Of a DNA stretch of 64,000 nucleotides, positions 40,143 to 59,146 are shown in pieces (within the stretch, counting starts at the first letter, position 1; every line of letters begins with the position of its first letter). Below the pieces are notes generated by a model. It did not search any database. It was given only the letters and a program-made list of their open reading frames with translations, and was not told the origin of the DNA. The stretch covers positions 8,703,310 through 8,767,309 of the forward strand of contig NC_049996.1 in NCBI RefSeq assembly GCF_000003815.2, given 5' to 3'. Position numbers and translations under genes: made by a program. This DNA is from Branchiostoma floridae (lineage: Eukaryota > Chordata > Leptocardii > Amphioxiformes > Branchiostomatidae).

Positions 40143-40350
40143 CCATGCCATACCGTGCTAGCGAGATATTCTACCCTGTAGATTCGACGGTATGTAACGT
40201 TATGACATACGTATCGGCCTACCATGAATGTGCTGCTTGGTTTGCGGTCCATGCCATATCGTGCTAGCGAGATATTCTACCCTGCAGATTCGACGGTATG
40301 TAACGTTATGACATACGTATCGGCCTACCATGAATGTGCTGCTTGGTTTC
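40143..40350. repeat. Tandem duplication, period 106 bp
   Basis: ccatgccataccgtgctagc at 40143 and 40249; the copies differ at only a few positions and end tgctgcttggttt. A recent duplication. Confidence 0.9.
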
Positions 40351-45334: not shown

Positions 45335-45414
45335 ATGTCGCCTGCTAGTTGCCTACTTGGAGTACTTCTGCTGTGGGACCTGATACCCGGCCCGGACGCC
45401 CTATCGTACTTCGG
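45335..45414 (+). CDS. WNT9: Wnt9 exon 1, signal peptide
   Basis: ATG at 45335, reading [20 protein letters not shown] then DALSYF; donor gtgagt, phase 2. The hydrophobic core and the SYFG junction typical of Wnt9 support this start. Confidence 0.93.
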
Positions 45415-48400
45415 GTGAGTGTGTCCTCGGCGCTTCCTCGCGTCCTCTCCCGCCCGTGCCCTCCGACAGCACCCGTCACGACTGTCGGGGTGCTCCCGTG
45501 TTCAGCCGTAAAACACCGGGCTGCGGCTCCGTTTACAATGTATACACATAAATCCGCGATTTTTCATTCATTCGTCCTCCGTTACAGATTAACAGGGAGG
45601 GAGCCTCTGATGGTGCTGCCGCTCGGAGTGGACGACATCAACGCCCTGCCGCCCGTCAAGATCTGTGAGAGCTTCAAACTGAAGAGGAAACAGCGGCGAA
45701 TGTGTAAGCGGGACGCCGGGGTGGCCGAGACCCTGGTAGAGGCCATGCACATGTCCGCCAGGGAGTGTCAGCATCAGTTTCACAACGAGCGCTGGAATTG
45801 TACCCTGGGCAAGACAAGGCTGAACATGCTCAAGAGAGGTAAGTCCGCGTCACAACATAACACAACACAACACACAACAACGTGAAACGTTCCCCCCTCC
45901 CGTATCGCGGCATCTCCCGATGATTTATGTGTGCCGGCTCGCGACCATGCTAGCTCGGCTCGCCGCTGTGTTGATGGTTCGTTAGTAGCTAGCCATCGCC
46001 TAGTCGTCTCGAATGTCGGCCCCCGTGATAAAGTATATACAGTACCGCGGGGCTGTGTTTTACACCTGTAGCCTTCCCCACCAGCCTTCACAAACACGGG
46101 ACCTCCCGGTAAACATACTGTAACACCACACAGCACGATTAAGGCCCGGCTTTGTCGCCTGTTTTACTACCGGGTGTTGGATTCCCTTTCTTAAATCGTC
46201 GTCTGACACGACTGTAACTGTCCAACCAGTAACGACGAACGTCACCATAGTCTAGTTATATCGTGTAGCAATGACACTGCTCACTAAACAGACGTAATAT
46301 TTGCAAAACGACTCATGGACATACCGTCGTACGGCGCAGACACCTGCCGTTTTCTCGTTGTTGTGAAACTGTTGACATGTTCTCAAGCTTCTAACACCCG
46401 CAAACACGTGTCATGTAAAATGACTCAGCAAAAGGCTCATAAAAAAACACTTATAGAAATCATAAACTTGTACCGTAGCGATTTTGATCGATTTCATGTT
46501 GTTTTTGTTAAACCATTGCTGCCGTACAAGATAGCTCACTGCTTGGTAGGCATTTTTCTCGGTCAACAAATCCCCGCCTACACAGTGGAATTATTTTCAA
46601 GGGGCAAAGACTACATTCTATTGTGTTTTTCGGGATTGACGGCCACAATGTAAAAATAGACTGCAACTTTAGCCTTTGGGTTCAAACTAACTACAACTAA
46701 TTGTCGGTTATCTAAAAAAATTACACCATTTTGGAACATTGTCACAACAGGAATGTCTGTGAAAATGGAAATGCAATATCACCAAACACTGAAACAATTG
46801 TTGCTCTTTCTAAACATGTTTGTCGTGTGAAGTGTTACTGAATGAAAAAGTAGTTCTCTTGTTGCTATGTGTGCCACTACACACTAAAAATCGTTCAAGT
46901 TCGGCCAAAGTGCTTGCACTGTAAAGTCAGATGTTGTTCCACGTTGAGCCTCTATTTATTTTCCTTGCTTCTCGGTGCTGTATTCAACCTGCTTGCTTTT
47001 GGCGGTGACGCTTTCATGTGCAAATAGTTACGTGGCTTGTCAGATCTTTTAAGCGCCTTGCGTGTTTTCTGCCAACATCCTCTTGTATCCTTCACGGTAC
47101 TGCATTCAAAAGCACGCATTGGCTTTTCTTTATAAGCTTTGGTTTTAAAAAATACGTTATACTAATCGCACTGGCACTAGGAGCTGCAGATGCGTTATTT
47201 TAGTTACCCCTTTTGGAAAGATTTTAAAGTTTGAAAATTTTCTGATTTCTAGATGTGGCTGAGGGGCGAAAACGTTCACGTGAAAGAAACAGTGAGTTTC
47301 GTCTCTTCTTCTGTTGTTATACACGCTTTTTTTGAAAACTTGTAATTGGTCTAAATTACCGTCCCCAAAGACCTATGCGGTCTGAGCCGAAGCAGAAACA
47401 AGACCGGCCAGAGAAACCAAACCGGGCCGAACGCTCCTTTTGATCAGTATTCAGAGTTGAAAGATGCGGGAAGAAAATGAAGGGTTGCCGCTTTTGTTGG
47501 CGGCTGTTGTCCCCTTGTTTCTCCTTAGTTGTCGGAGCATGTGTTCGGAAGGGAAATGTCCCTACCAACACTCGATGCTAAGAAAACAGCGGATAATAGG
47601 CGGGATTTGGGGGATGTTATGTACCTATCTTCTTTTAATCCCGCCACCACCGGAGTAACCGTAACCCCTCGGCGATTCTTCCATCAGCCGCTTTCTACTC
47701 CCTTTTTTCATACGCAGTGACTTGTCACAATCTGCTGATTACCAAGTAGTGGTCTATACAGGCCTGGCACGGCCCTTTGTGACTACAATTGCTGTCCAAA
47801 CAATGGAGTCTCGGGCTTTTTAGCGCCCAGACCAAGCGGAAAATGATGTTTATTCGATCCCCTTTAAGGTCGCCCCTCCTCCATAGTGTGTATATGTGTG
47901 TCCTGTTATAGCCTTCCTGAACTAGTGATGATAAGGAAGCGATAAAGTCGTTATCACAATTGTGTTGATAAGTGCAGTTTACACGATATATATTTTAAGT
48001 GATTTACCTGTATATACCTACCATGAGAGCTGTGAGTTGCTTTCACAATATGAAAGTGCTTTCTTTTCAATCTTTTTAACGTATTTCTTCACTCTCAAAT
48101 GAAGATGCAAATTCTGCAATTGTTACACAGTAGCGGATAAGACAAATAAGATATGTACAATGTAAATATATGGGGGATACATTCCTAACAAATGCGTAGT
48201 AGAACATGCATGTTGTGGCTGCATTTGCTATTCCGTATTTTACTCATGTGCGTTTTCGGATATTTGGTACAAATCTATAGCCTGTGAGTGTGATGCTGGC
48301 TTGATAATGATAGGGTTCAAAGAAAGTGTTTCTTAGGTTATCAGGGTTCACAGAAACAGTTTTCTGGGTTTACAGAGACTTCAAAGAAAGTGTTTTCTGA

Positions 48401-51400
48401 GTTTTTAGGGTTCAAAGAAACAGTTTTCTGGATGTACAGGCGTCAAAGAAAGTGTTTTCCGGAATTTCAGGGTTCACAAAAACAGTTTTCTGGGTTTACA
48501 GGCTTCAAACTAAGTGTTTTGGGGGTTTTCAGGGTTCAAAGATACAATTTTCCGGGTTTAAAGGTTTCAAAGAAAGTATTTTCTGGGTTTTCAGGGTTCA
48601 AAGAAATAGTTTTCTGGGTGTACAGACGTCGAGGAAACCGTTTTCTGGGTTTACAGGCTTCAATGAAAGGGTTTTCAGGGTTCAAAGATACAGTATTCCG
48701 GGTTTAAAGGTTTCAAAACAAGTGTTTTCTGGATTTTCAGGGTTCAAGAAACAGTTTTCTGGGTTTACAGACTTCTAAGAAAATGTTTTCTGGGTTTTCA
48801 GGGTTCAAGGAGACCGCGTTCCTGTACGCCATCTCGTCCTCGGGGCTGACGCACGCCCTGGGCCGCGCGTGTTCCAGCGGGAAGCTGGAGAGGTGCACGT
48901 GCGACGAGAGCTTCAACGACATCGATAACCGGGAGACCTGGCTGTGGGGAGGCTGCGGGGACAACCTGAAATATTCCCGGAAATTCGCGCGACAGTTTCT
49001 CAGCATGAACAAGGCGGAGGAACAGGACTTGCGAGCCGCCGTGGACAGGCATAACACCAACCTGGGAATCCGAGTGAGTACCATAGTAGAACCTCTCTCA
49101 TCTGTCGTGTGTGGGTTTCATAGTGGTACAAGCAACAGTGTTGTCCTATCATTGTCCCATTTCTACACTATTATAACAAACACCAACCTGGGAATCCGAG
49201 TGAGTACCATAGTAGAACCCCTCTCATCTGTCGTGTGTGGGTTTCATGATGGTACAACTAGTGTTCTAAGATTACCATAGTAGAACCTCTCTCAATTGTC
49301 GTGTGTGGGTTTCAACAGTGCCGACCTATCTTCGTCCCAATTCTACATTATTATAACAAATAGAATAGAATAACATCAACCTGGGAATCCGAGTGAGTAC
49401 CATAGTAGAACCTCTCTCATCTGTCGTGTGGGTTTCAAAATAATACAACAATACCGTCCTATCTATATCTCTATAACAAATAGAATAGTACCAACCTAGG
49501 AATCCGAGTACCAATCCGAGAATCTGAGTACCATAGTAGAACGAACCCCTCTTCTCTGGCATGTGTGGGTTGCAAGTTTCAACAGTGTTGTCCTATCATT
49601 GTCCCATTTCTACCCTTTTTTGCCTTTATCTAACCGTGACAACTTTATAAGAAATAGAATGACTACGTATTGGGCATTGGTGGTCAAACAAAAGAATGTG
49701 AATTTTCTGTGATCATTCTGATATTATCAAACAACCTCTATCAGTAAATCTTTCCTATGTCACGAAAGAGTACAACCATATTCACCATACTGCACTACAA
49801 GCTTCAATATCTCTACAAGTTAGCTCTAAAAATAACCATTAGAACAATGCAACTTCTAACAAAATAACGTATCCATATCTCTGCACTATTAAAGTTATGA
49901 TATGTTCTTTCGCAAACAAAGTGTAAGGGAGGGCACAATTTTCAAGTCAACATAAAGATAGGACAAAGAGTGCATGGATACTAATCTTAAAATATAAAGA
50001 AAAAGACATTTTTGTCCCCGTTATTTGGGTCCCTAGCCATTCTCTTGGTATTGGTGCATTTCTCAGTGTAACTCGAGGCGGGGGAATAGGAAGTGATTTA
50101 GTTCAGACTAGGAAATCTGTACGCGAGACGAGGAAAACCAGAGTGATGACAAGTTGTCCACATAATGAACAGGTGTTCTTTCCTGTGGGTGGAAGGTCCT
50201 AATCCGGGTTTGTGTGAAAACCACTTCTTCCTAAAGAAGAAATACACGAAAACATGTCCGCCCTGAAAATAGAATTAAGGGGTTTAACAAATGTTGATAT
50301 AGAGATGACTGTTTCGTGGACAAACTCTTGTGGTTTGGGTTCCTTTCTTTCTTTGAAGAAGGAAGCGTCATTAAATGTTCCGTGCGCCCATATCTTGCAT
50401 GACTACTACGAAAGTGATTTTGATTCACGTAGAAAATATGTCAGTATCAGCAAGGAGGTTAAAATAGGATTGTTTAACCTGCTTGGTATCAGGCCAGTGT
50501 TATTTGTGTGGGATAGTTGTTGATCGGCTTGCATGTGAGCCACAATAATCTAGCCATGATACCCATCACACCTTACCCTGCATGACTGCGTCCTCAAGAA
50601 TCTGACCCAAGAAACAATTTCCCAGCCTCGACTCTCCCTTTTTCTGATTAGCCTATCGGTTCTTAAAGTCTTTTACACATATCTGCACAAGACAATTACG
50701 GGTAAATCCTTCCTTTTCCCCTTGAAATGGTTTAATTTTGGGGGTGAGATTAGGGCGACTTTGTGGCGGTATGTCCACCAGGTAGGCACAGTTGGGTCGG
50801 GCCTCAGGCTCCTCGCGATGAGCGACGGCCGGGCTTTTCAGAGAGAAGCGAAAATATTTTTCCAGTGGAGGAGGAGTGAATAAGTGTAGTCAGGTGTGGC
50901 AAACAGAAAAACATGGGAAAAGTAGCCGTTTGGCTTGGGTTTCGGTGGGGCCCTTTGTGCGCGAGCTCGCTGAAGCACCGCGGCGTTTGCGTAGCTGCCT
51001 CGGTGGGATAAAGGCCGGGGTGAAGAGGGTGGCGGCTGGTGAATGTGCCGTGTTGTCGGTAATTGTATTAAAGACAGCAGGTAATCCTACCCACCCAGTC
51101 ACCAATTGGAATTGTTGGCCGGTCGCCATGGCAACGGACGAATTTTTTGTCAGACGATTTGACAGAAAGAGAGAGACTGCAAATTGGTAACTCGGGTGGG
51201 TGTAACTAAGAATTCTTTTGTGTCGAAATTCTAGTCACTTTCGAACGTCTGGGGATGTAGATAGCGACTTATAGGGATTCAAAAGAACAAGTAGTCGCTA
51301 AATATGAAGTACTAGCTTTGAAAATGTGTTAAAACGTAGGTACAGGTCCATGGTAACGTTCTTGCTTCCCTGTCCGAAACACTCACCCATCTAGAAGGTG

Positions 51401-54400
51401 CTCCTATAAGTATAATGTAGAATTCTTTATGTCCAAAATCTAGTCACTTTCGAACGTCTGGGTGTAGATAGCGACTTATAAGGATTCAAATAACAAGTAG
51501 TCAGTAAAGATGAAGTACTAGGTTTGATAACGTGGTAAAACGTAGGTACATGTGTACCCTGGGAATGTTCTTGCTTCCCAGTCCGAAACGCTCGCCCATA
51601 TAGAAGGTGTCCCGATAGATCTTGCATGCATGCTTGCCCCGTGCCATCGCCCTTGGGGGCCAAACTCTCAAATTTCCTCTCCGGAAAAATTCCGGACACT
51701 CTTGTTGTATCCTCAACGAAATTTCCACAGTTATGAGACACGTGGGAAGCTTCGTAGCATTGTGACTGTCGGATTCTCCTCCAAAAACTTTTATCTAAAA
51801 TTATAGTTGATGTTGAAGATGTTAAAACGGATAAGTCTTTTTAATTCCGGTGCCTTTTGGTGCATTTATGAATTATGATGAATGTGCATCTTTCAACAAC
51901 AAAACATAACATATACTTTTCCCTTTGTAACAAAGGAGTGGGATTATAAACGGAAACACACTGAGGTTTCAAAAAAATAAGATCAGACAAAAATGTTCTC
52001 ATTCGAAATTCATAATTGATTCCTATTCGAGAAGGTAGTCTTTCGAACCGACATCCTTAAAAACCGGGACACAAGGAGAGACGGGTTTCTAAGATATATA
52101 TCTAAGTAGAAATGGCAGAGATAGACGTATAATATATAAAAGATATATCTTTTAGTTTTCAACTTAAACTTAGATAATGTTTGGCGCATTTAAGACAAGA
52201 TCATTGTTAAAGATAAGCATAAGAAACGTACAAAAAGACATTGAAATATTTTTGGTAAAGTGAACAAAATGATTTATGGGTAGAAGCCTTCTATATGTTC
52301 AACGTACGTTTTGGGAGTTTCATTTTTGTTATAATTTTTTCGGCCATAGCTTGTAGAATGAGGCAAAAATTCAGTGTGTAAGACAGAAGCAAGTAGGTAC
52401 GGGCACATGAAGATAGAATAAAAGAAATGTCGGCAATGTGTCTCTAGTATAAAAAACGAGCTTCCCTCTGGTGGTTGAAAGAGAAGAAAGCTAAAGTTCT
52501 TGTTTACAACCTGGTTGTAGGAGTGTTGAAGAATTGTGCCTTTGTACGGGCACATGTAGATAGAATAAAAGAAATGTCGGCAATGTGTCTCTAGTATAAA
52601 AAACGAGCTTCCTTCTGGTGGTTGAAAGAGAAGAAAGCTAATGTTCTTGTTTACAACCTAGTTGTAGGAGTGTTGAAGAGTTGTGCCTTTGTCGGTAAGG
52701 CGAGAGTGGTACACGAACCGACAACAAACCGCGCAAAACGAACACAAATAACGGACAACTGTCAACAGTCGGGTCCAACCCTCAACATAGCTTTTTTGTA
52801 CCCTTTTCTGTAAGGGGCAGAGGTCACCCGGAGTATATACTATATAGAGTAACTGAACGTGGTGTTTGTCACATCCCTGTAGCGGTCAATGTCTCCATGT
52901 GAGAATAGCGAACAGTACATTCTCAGTAACGGCTATGTATTTCGTGCATTTTATTGGGTGGCAGCACAAAGTTTTTAGAATGTAAGAAACTGCAATAATA
53001 CATTAACGTAGATATATACATGTAATATACAATATAACTGCAATCAAGAACAAAGGAATATTCCACTAAATACATGAAAGTAAACCCTCTAGATTTAAGT
53101 TCATCGTGATGTTTTAAATACAACTGGATAAAACTGCTTCGTAAGCCAGTTTAGGGGTACAACATATAGCAAAGTGGCCAGATTTGGACTCCATTTGTTT
53201 GGTTTGGTAGCTTTTATTTTCTTTCATGCATCTATTAAAGCGTTTTGGTCACTACCAAAAAGGGAGGAATGTGGCCGTTGCTAGGTTACTAGATATAACA
53301 TCGATATGAATATAATGTCGTTAAGTAGGAATGGGGGAGGGGGGCGACACATCGATCTTTGAGCCTCACGAGTCGGTTAACTTTTAACCACCCCGCTATT
53401 TTCGTACATTGTTTTTATAGCTTGGTACATAGTGACAGTACACAGGTATTTTCCACCTAACACTGTTAGATTTTGTTCTTAAAATATCCACAATTTTCTT
53501 GTGACAAATTGGAATAAAACTTGTCGACTACCTACCCCTACATCGAGGAAGATTGTGACTCCCTAAAATCATATTTTTGATACAAATCATGAAAACAAGA
53601 GTCGAAATGTTGCATATCCGAATATCAAAGAAAGATGATCCTTAGGAATCCAATGTTACAATTGTGACCAAAATTTCATTCGTCATCTAACAGCAAATTG
53701 CTTTCCACGTACCACACTAATTTCAAGATGGGAGGTGTCGGTCTATGATTCCGCAATGCTTGAAAATACAGTACGGCTTCCAAAATCGCCAATAAGTATA
53801 AAAACGTGCCAAAATTAATACAAATCCAGTGAAATGATCTTGACTTATAGGTGCAATCACACAGAAAGAAACAACACCCCTATCGGATCTCGAGGCGAGC
53901 CTCCTGCCCAGAGGTACCAAACCAAGGTATTTTCCTCCAACCTTCCGTAGGCTCGTAAAACGACTCAAGAACAATTATATATCCTGTGCTATCGCCCACC
54001 CAAAATAACAGAACAAACAGTCGTCCTTATCATTGATAAATTGCAGCATACTTCAGCGGCACGGAGAGCGTCGTTTATCATGGGCGTACGCAACGAAGAG
54101 AATAATTTGACCTGGCTCAAAAGTCGTTTATATAGGTATGTCCCCTTTGCTCAACTGGTAGCAGGGAAATTTTGTAACAACGGTAAATGCACATTCCGTA
54201 TCGACCAACCATTCAAAGTGTCTGTTGACGAAAACATCTTCGTCTCCCATCCTAAATGTAGGATCGATTCAAAATCGTAAGTTTAGGATCGACTCAAAAG
54301 CTATGATAACGTCGTATATCCAGTTATATTTGAACAATAAACTGCAATTACAGTCATGCATATTATACAACCTTTGACAACTTATATCAAAGCAATATCG

Positions 54401-57400: not shown

Positions 57401-59146
57401 CTGCTCCTCGATAACAACGATTCTGCATCAGACGTGGACATCTCTAGGTGTAGTCTGTCTTCGTTGTTGCGCTTTGGTGTTAAACATTTCGGTCGTAAGA
57501 ATTTTGGTTCGCACAAAGATTATTGGTCACCCTGACTTTTTACAAAACCTGACACCATTATTTTAAAAAAAGAAAAGAAATTCCCTTGATTTGCCAAGAA
57601 CACCGGTTGAATTTATGAACTGAAGAAGCCAAGAATGGGAAGCAGAACCATAAACATATATAAGACCTGGAATTATTATAAATCTCTCTAATGAAATTTT
57701 AACGCCTCAAAGAAAATAGGCATCTAAACAGACCCGCACATTTGATGAGATGCCTCTTGTTTGGAAATGACGGAAAATCTAAGTAATTATAACTGAATGC
57801 CTAGCCTACGAATGACATACCTGTAGTTGTGTGTGTAGCCTTTGAAAAATCTTGTCATAAGACATGCCTGTTAGATATTTTTTCTCAAATTGCCTTTTTA
57901 AGTTTATATACGAGAACTCGAAGGATTGTTCTAGCTAGGGTGATTTGGGGAGAGTTAAGGAACGTAGGACCTGGTTGAGGTTTTCACTCTGGATTGCCAA
58001 TTAAGAGCTGGGCATGTGTTCTTGTGTTAGGTCTTTCAGCAGGACCTTAAGGAGTCTTAGGCTTGCCAAATAATTAGCATACTCGCGTCATCATGGGGCC
58101 ACAAGTGTTGACAAGCCGTGCTAATTGTTGAACCGCAGAATGACCGAATAGATGAATGGATGGACAGAAAGATTAATGTATCTCCTAGTTCACATTCTTT
58201 CCCATGCTCACATTTTGTCGTTTCACCTGTTAGTCCTGACAATATGTAGTCTCTTTCAAGTCTTTGGTATGACCCAGCCTGGGTTTAAACCTACATCTCT
58301 ACTTTCTCTGCTTAGCAGACCAGCACTGAAAAAGGGTGTAGCAATTGAACACACAATGAACTGTAGTGGCTGCAATACTGTGTGGCCCAAGGGATATAGA
58401 ATGGAGATAGGCACCGCCCTATACATCGAGGCTGTGGAAAGGGTTTTAAATATGTCTAACCGTTGGTTTCAGCACTAACACTTCCCGAAAGAGTGTAGCA
58501 ATCGGACACACCGTGGACTGTAGTGGTTGTAAAAGTGTGTGGCCCAAGGGCTATAGAAATGGAGATAGGCGCCGCCCTAGACCCCGAAGGGTTTAACGTC
58601 TAACCGTTGGTTTCAGCACTAACACCTCCTACTCACCTCCTAACAAAGTATATTTATTTAAAGAAGTCTGTTACATATCAGGTGGTGCGGTCCCGAGTGA
58701 AGACGACGTGCAAGTGCCATGGCGTGTCGGGGTCCTGCAGCGTGCAGACCTGCTGGAGACAACTGGCACCCTTCCACGAGATCGGAGACGTCTTAAAGAA
58801 CAAGTACGAGAAGGCCATGAAGGTGGTGAGCATGACCAACGGCGCGGGGGAGAGAGCGCAGCTCATGAACGAACCCGTCGGGAACGAGGCGCCCAAAGGC
58901 CCGAAGAACAACGACATGGTGTTCGTCGACGACTCTCCGAGCTACTGCAAAAAGGGGAAATATTCGTACGGCACTAGAGGCCGAATCTGTGACAAGGAGA
59001 AGAACTGCGACAGTATCTGTTGTGGAAGGGGACACAACACACAAAGTCTCGTCATCAAGAGACCCTGTCAGTGCCAGGTCAAATGGTGTTGTTATGTCGA
59101 GTGCAAAGAATGCAACACGAGAGAAAATATCTACATGTGTAAATAA
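45335..59146 (+). CDS. WNT9: Wnt9, secreted lipid-modified signalling protein
   Basis: Exons 45335-45414, 45588-45838, 48802-49073 and 58682-59146; 1068 nt, 355 aa, GT-AG introns with agreeing phases. Residues 1 to about 22 are a signal peptide; then the Wnt fold with its Cys framework. The assignment to Wnt9 rests on [51 protein letters not shown] and [20 protein letters not shown], which match vertebrate WNT9A/B rather than other subfamilies. NCT after ERW is a conserved N-glycosylation site. Ser217 in [10 protein letters not shown] is the expected palmitoleoylation site (Porcupine substrate). The C-terminal Cys-rich block with CCGRGHNTQ and [16 protein letters not shown] is complete, so the gene looks intact. 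Wnt9 acts extracellularly through Frizzled/LRP receptors. Intron 3 is 9.6 kb. The splice junctions of exon 3 are embedded in tandem repeats (see findings). Confidence 0.97.
45588..45838 (+). CDS. WNT9: Wnt9 exon 2
   Basis: After ttacag, before gtaagt; phase 2 in, phase 1 out. Encodes [13 protein letters not shown], the [19 protein letters not shown] region, and [11 protein letters not shown] with the conserved glycosylation site. Confidence 0.97.
45839..48313. other. Wnt9 intron 2 before the minisatellite
   Basis: No exon seen. A short acaac/acac microsatellite follows the exon 2 donor (45850-45882). The rest is AT-rich single-copy-looking sequence. Confidence 0.5.
48314..48801 (+). repeat. 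31-bp minisatellite, 16 units, abutting Wnt9 exon 3
   Basis: Units start at 48314, 48345, 48376, 48409, 48440, 48471, 48502, 48533, 48564, 48595, 48626, 48657, 48679, 48710, 48741 and 48771; exon 3 starts at 48802, in register. Period 31 (one unit of 22, one of 33, one of 30). Two subtypes alternate: ggttcaaagaaacagttttc and g(c/t)ttcaaagaaagtgttttc, giving a 62-bp dimer. Each unit ends with AG, mostly tttacag or ttttcag. Confidence 0.95.
48802..49073 (+). CDS. WNT9: Wnt9 exon 3, flanked by junction-spanning repeats
   Basis: After ttttcag, before gtgagt; phase 1 in, phase 0 out. Encodes [20 protein letters not shown], the RCTCDE and [15 protein letters not shown] blocks and ends NTNLGIR. The exon is GC-rich in the middle; its first and last about 20 nt also belong to tandem repeats on each side. 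Confidence 0.97.
49053..49545 (+). repeat. Tandem copies of the Wnt9 exon 3 donor region
   Basis: caacctgggaatccgagtga then gtaccatagtagaacc occurs at the true donor (GT at 49074) and again with GT at 49200 and 49393, with a degenerate copy at 49508 and a copy lacking the exon part at about 49270. The first two are about 126 bp apart and differ by one base over about 69. Confidence 0.93.
51211..51625. repeat. Tandem duplication, period 210 bp
   Basis: aattctttt/atgtc then tagtcactttcgaacgtctg at 51211 and 51421; both continue gtagatagcgacttata, gaagtacta and aaaacgtaggtac. Confidence 0.85.
52397..52694. repeat. Recent tandem duplication, period 147 bp
   Basis: gtacgggcacatg at 52397 and 52544; the copies differ at about six positions over 147 bp. 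This is the least diverged repeat of its size in the window. Confidence 0.92.
55430..55910. repeat. Tandem repeat, three copies of about 150-170 bp
   Basis: ttcatga at 55431, 55577 and 55744 starts units containing cccacgttt, atgataactgggttttgaga, gatgaaaccttg and atgtatatca. Confidence 0.85.
56976..57185. mobile_element. Inverted-repeat element, about 210 bp
   Basis: ggctgaccaaggagtgttct plus gagcc is matched in reverse by gctggccaaggagtgttctg plus agcc. A second paired block (tgaaacaaggaggagtattt / tgaaacagggagcagcattt) follows, with an extra 17 bases on the right arm. Confidence 0.75.
58337..58622. repeat. Tandem duplication, period 157 bp, close to the Wnt9 exon 4 acceptor
   Basis: tgtagcaattgaacacac (58337) and tgtagcaatcggacacac (58494) start units that share gtgtggcccaaggg, tggagataggc, ccgcccta and ctaaccgttggtttcagcac. 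The second ends about 60 bp before exon 4. Confidence 0.88.
58682..59146 (+). CDS. WNT9: Wnt9 exon 4, palmitoylation site and C-terminal Cys domain
   Basis: After tatcag. Starts [20 protein letters not shown], continues [13 protein letters not shown] and ends in [14 protein letters not shown] and TAA. The residue following LGIR in the family is V, agreeing with this junction and not with the downstream donors. Confidence 0.97.

Follow-up and report, generated by a model that had tools for sequence, protein, structure and literature searches.

A tandem array across the exon 3 boundary of an amphioxus Wnt gene duplicates its splice donor and is probably an ordinary boundary-spanning repeat

Where the end of an exon has been duplicated together with its splice donor, does the copied donor give the gene a second product, or does it lie in the intron as part of a repeat? 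This question is posed by a Wnt gene of the amphioxus Branchiostoma floridae, which lies on the + strand of the 64-kb window (the whole stretch of 64,000 nucleotides analysed here). The original prediction was that the terminal 21 nt of exon 3, together with about 48 nt of intron, recur 126 bp downstream with one mismatch, that an identical second donor at 49200 adds 42 open codons, and that its use would yield a Wnt isoform with a 42-residue insert. Our results uphold the repeat, the donor, and the reading frame of the predicted insert, and lend no support to the importance ascribed to the second donor.

Four exons join into a single 355-residue reading frame (Table 1), and the spliced protein belongs to the Wnt family, matching PF00110 at 330.3 bits over residues 57-355 and profile positions 4-305 of 305. 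Its PDB matches are Wnt-7a, Wnt-5a, Wnt-3a, Wnt-3, Wnt-8, and WntD, the first three being the best; the gene is assigned at the level of the family, the subfamily label Wnt9 being that of the original prediction and the comparison set containing no Wnt9 sequence. No second Wnt gene was found in the window (best tblastn match outside the four exons, E = 0.31), while the 10 of 98 stop-to-stop ORFs scanned against Pfam revealed no further gene, their one match falling under its curated cut-off, and Rfam gave zero matches at the gathering score.

Table 1. Coding exons, tandem repeats, and the predicted insert of the Wnt gene (positions within the window)
Feature	Position	Strand	Evidence
Wnt coding exon 1, ATG to donor	45335..45414	+	assembled reading frame; tblastn
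Wnt coding exon 2	45588..45838	+	assembled reading frame
31/62-bp tandem array running into the first bases of exon 3	48312..48808	+	TRF
Wnt coding exon 3 (272 nt); its donor is the one fitting other Wnts	48802..49073	+	reading frame, PDB alignments, Pfam
Repeat unit 1: final 21 nt of exon 3, donor 49073/49074, 105 nt of intron	49053..49178	+	repeat search
Stretch gained if the second donor is used: 42 codons, stop-free	49074..49199	+	translation
Repeat unit 2, identical donor 49199/49200; contains an internal further unit from 49270 without exonic part	49179..49371	+	repeat search
Repeat unit 3, identical donor 49392/49393	49372..49486	+	repeat search
Diverged unit 4 and array tail, degenerate donor	49487..49619	+	repeat search
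Wnt coding exon 4, stop codon TAA	58682..59146	+	assembled reading frame

Both self-BLAST and a seed-based repeat finder detected the duplication at the donor side of exon 3; at score 50, Tandem Repeats Finder missed the 126-bp array itself and reported only a 20-bp piece at 49487-49533. Copies 1 (49053-49131) and 2 (49179-49257) stand 126 nt apart and are identical at 76 of 79 positions (96.2%), a resemblance far beyond chance (E = 1.3e-25 in the self-comparison), with mismatches at 49094, 49122, and 49123, one of which falls within the first 69 nt (21 exonic, 48 intronic). The repeat is thus as predicted and extends further. The donors of units 1 to 3 all read CGA/GTGAGTAC. The further copies predicted at 49393 and 49508 are also present, but the donor of copy 4 (49507/49508) is degenerate, reading CGA/GTACCAAT, and the array is longer than had been described: pieces at 49270-49358, which has no exonic part, and at 49513-49619 also resemble unit 1, so that it reaches about 49619. 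In all, it comprises four units with the exonic end, three of them with an intact donor, and at least one without, each about 115-130 bp long. Identity to unit 1 drops from copy 2 to copy 3 (91.1%) and to the later pieces (76.7 and 78.1%). From start to start, the units with the exonic end lie 126, 193, and 115 nt apart, and of these steps the first alone is divisible by three. Selection on the insert was considered and set aside: the three differences in 79 positions (0 of 21 exonic, 3 of 58 intronic) are too few to separate the two parts, and the 21/21 exonic identity is no clear sign of selection because the intronic part is also near-identical (55/58).

The array spans an exon-intron boundary, and most, though not all, of its copies retain the splice signal. 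It thus appears to have the form of the amphioxus “mirages”, described in the available text of PMC3087553 as minisatellite-like tandem duplications of exon-intron boundaries, at both 5' and 3' boundaries. From what is directly visible (a repeat whose left end is exonic, donors that are identical, and a 126-nt step that is open), we infer a choice of donor and a passive role for the remainder. Specifically, the boundary between exon 3 and intron 3 would have been duplicated in tandem, producing a short minisatellite that reaches downstream into the intron; the outermost, exon-proximal donor at 49073 would be the one used for functional mRNA; and the downstream copies would be passive leftovers, with the openness of the first step an accident. 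Occasional noisy splicing at 49199 would fit this passive-repeat account, which we regard as highly probable. The array, with its duplicated donor, is in that case probably ordinary.

How much weight can the open frame bear? As predicted, the 126-nt step keeps the frame and leaves 42 open codons; past 49073, the frame runs for 68 codons before a stop at 49278-49280. The chance of meeting no stop over the 105 new nucleotides is 0.19 on the + strand window-wide and 0.17 within intron 3; dinucleotide shuffles give 0.18 and base shuffles 0.13, so that 13-19% of comparable sequence would be open. For copy 2 alone, the chance of being both in frame and open is about 0.04-0.06 (one third for the frame, multiplied by the no-stop chance). 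The same exon, however, offered several such chances, including six acceptor copies, and for this reason the openness is unremarkable. Across nine duplicated splice signals of exon 3 (three donors, counting that of the degenerate fourth unit, plus six acceptors, exact matches only), three lie a multiple of three away and one is also open, relative to 0.24 open in-frame signals expected by chance; one or more would arise with a probability of 0.22. The stop-free, in-frame first step is not clearly above chance.

The acceptor copies counted here belong to the second array, at the other end of exon 3, where six exact CAG/GGTTC copies lie upstream with their exon sides starting at 48345, 48471, 48533, 48595, 48679, and 48741. 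Two of the six (48595 and 48679) are in frame, and none gives an open in-frame extension. A search for local direct repeats (lag up to 700, E up to 1e-3) gave 47, which together occupy 10.4% of the window; two of the six splice boundaries of the Wnt gene lie inside them, neither being a boundary of exon 2. An enrichment of repeats at splice boundaries was rejected: P = 0.12 if the boundaries are independent, which is not significant, and the two repeat-borne boundaries are hardly independent because they end one 272-nt exon. There are eight further TRF arrays in the window, with periods of 81-238 bp. Since repeats are common in the window and the overlap with boundaries is not significant, exon 3 lies in repeat-rich DNA and not evidently in a special device. 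RNA pairing between the flanking arrays, by which exon 3 might be looped out, was likewise discarded, as 48300-49700 holds just two inverted 12-nt matches (92% complementary).

Elsewhere in the window, 58331-58629 holds a unit of about 157 bp in two copies (79% alike) that stops 53 nt before the exon 4 acceptor is reached, both copies carrying the acceptor-like GGTTTCAG. Little-diverged tandem duplications outside exons, at 40143-40349 (106 bp, 98%) and 52397-52692 (147 bp, 96%), are of a kind frequent in the window.

The case that the second donor is appreciably used, yielding a functional Wnt isoform with 42 residues inserted before a conserved segment, draws on the identical donor, the step divisible by three, the absence of a stop, and the comparative weakness of the genuine exon 3 donor. 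The predicted protein argues otherwise in three respects. First, the direct junction 49073^58682 aligns without gaps around LGIR/VVRS with one Wnt-7a and two Wnt-5a PDB chains (3 of 12 hits). Second, the Pfam wnt profile favours the direct junction (330.3 bits) over the protein with the insert (317 bits), in which the match is split into two stretches; searched by themselves, the 42 insert residues give no hit in Pfam at E up to 1. Third, the protein contains 24 cysteines past residue 25, and the insert would make their number odd, at 25. In Wnt proteins most cysteines form disulfides, and the conserved segment just after the predicted insert carries the lipid, so that an unpaired extra cysteine right before it is unlikely to be harmless. 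Published amphioxus boundary repeats offer little encouragement either: in the available text of PMC3087553 and PMC3902484, the mirages of Adh3, globin, and troponin C (TnC) reportedly leave splicing undisturbed, and the authors of the PGBD5 study set aside an in-frame insertion of 57 residues predicted from its repeats, without RNA evidence either way, normal splicing of PGBD5 being their own inference, made without RNA across the repeats (PMC3902484). With the openness of the frame itself within chance, we give a functional isoform very little credence.

Use of the downstream donors without a useful product is another matter, and a functional isoform is much less likely than such leaky use. 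The exon 3 donor is the weakest of the gene, its U1 duplex reaching -7.1 kcal/mol, relative to -13.4 and -10.7 for the donors of exons 1 and 2 (45414 and 45838), and of 3950 GT sites scored on the + strand, 3.1% equal or exceed it in strength. Because this weak donor is accompanied by two of equal strength (copies 2 and 3), all within 320 nt, leaky use is plausible, and genuine competition among the three is a plausible counterpoint to the passive account. Some exon 3 ends could then fall at 49199, giving the insert, or at 49392, where translation would hit the stop at 49278 and yield a protein ending at residue 269; the latter transcripts would probably be degraded by nonsense-mediated decay, and the array would cut Wnt output without providing a useful isoform. 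The available text of PMC3087553 mentions that mirage copies could serve as cryptic splice sites, although RT-PCR of the globin mirages suggested regular splicing. We regard leaky use as possible and rather unlikely, while noting that it overlaps with the passive-repeat explanation.

The array, or its copy number, could instead be an artefact of assembly. The sequence represents one haplotype only; the copy numbers of the PGBD5 repeats differ between two lancelet assembly versions (2 vs 7 and 3 vs 6; available text of PMC3902484); and the draft genome contained an aberrant assembly of BflGb6 (available text of PMC3087553). Nevertheless, the units of the Wnt array are not mechanical duplicates, being distinguished by substitutions and indels, and the PGBD5 sequence was confirmed on re-examined reads (PMC3902484, same text), which makes an artefact quite improbable. 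Repeat number can also be allelic, as in BflGb6, whose haplotypes carry 6 vs 3 units in the available text of PMC3087553. The most far-fetched idea that we entertain is that a young boundary-spanning minisatellite, with an open in-frame first step and a donor equal to the weak original, is now converting Wnt intron to coding sequence, with allelic repeat number toggling the 42-residue insert ahead of the conserved segment, such that a length-unstable repeat would make ligand isoforms.

If the finding is only structural, the known boundary-spanning repeats gain a Wnt gene in which both ends of one exon carry arrays, and the locus is a natural setting for testing spliceosome choice between three identical donors spread over less than 320 nt. 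Should the second donor be used, the gene would exemplify the creation of new coding sequence by boundary repeats in a conserved developmental ligand. The literature searched gave nothing on Wnt9 splicing in amphioxus, and the terms “isoform”, “splic”, and “mirage” each occur zero times in PMC6060547.

Placed beside known systems, the locus resembles, first, the model, discussed in PMC3087553 (available text), in which introns are gained when sequence containing splice sites is duplicated in tandem, in that duplicated splice signals supply raw material; unlike in that model, no new intron is evident in the Wnt gene, and the copies fall within the present intron 3. Second, it resembles lancelet PGBD5, whose repeats (60 and 108 bp, abutting 5' splice sites) join the known cases together with those of troponin C in the available text of PMC3902484: both are conserved genes with donor-side repeats and a predicted in-frame insertion, although the insertion in PGBD5 came from a predicted extra exon and that in the Wnt gene would come from the second donor alone. 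Finally, it resembles the mirages of Adh3, BflGb6, BflGb9, and troponin C, in which units likewise combine an exon end, a splice signal, and adjoining intron, and 5' and 3' boundaries are affected. The Wnt unit of about 115-130 bp falls amid the published lengths (10-72 bp in Adh3, 150-160 bp in BflGb6, and 157 bp in BflGb9; available text of PMC3087553). The Wnt array, known from the sequence of one haplotype, departs from these mirages in the gene that it occupies, in the presence of arrays at both ends of one exon, and in a first step that is both in frame and open.
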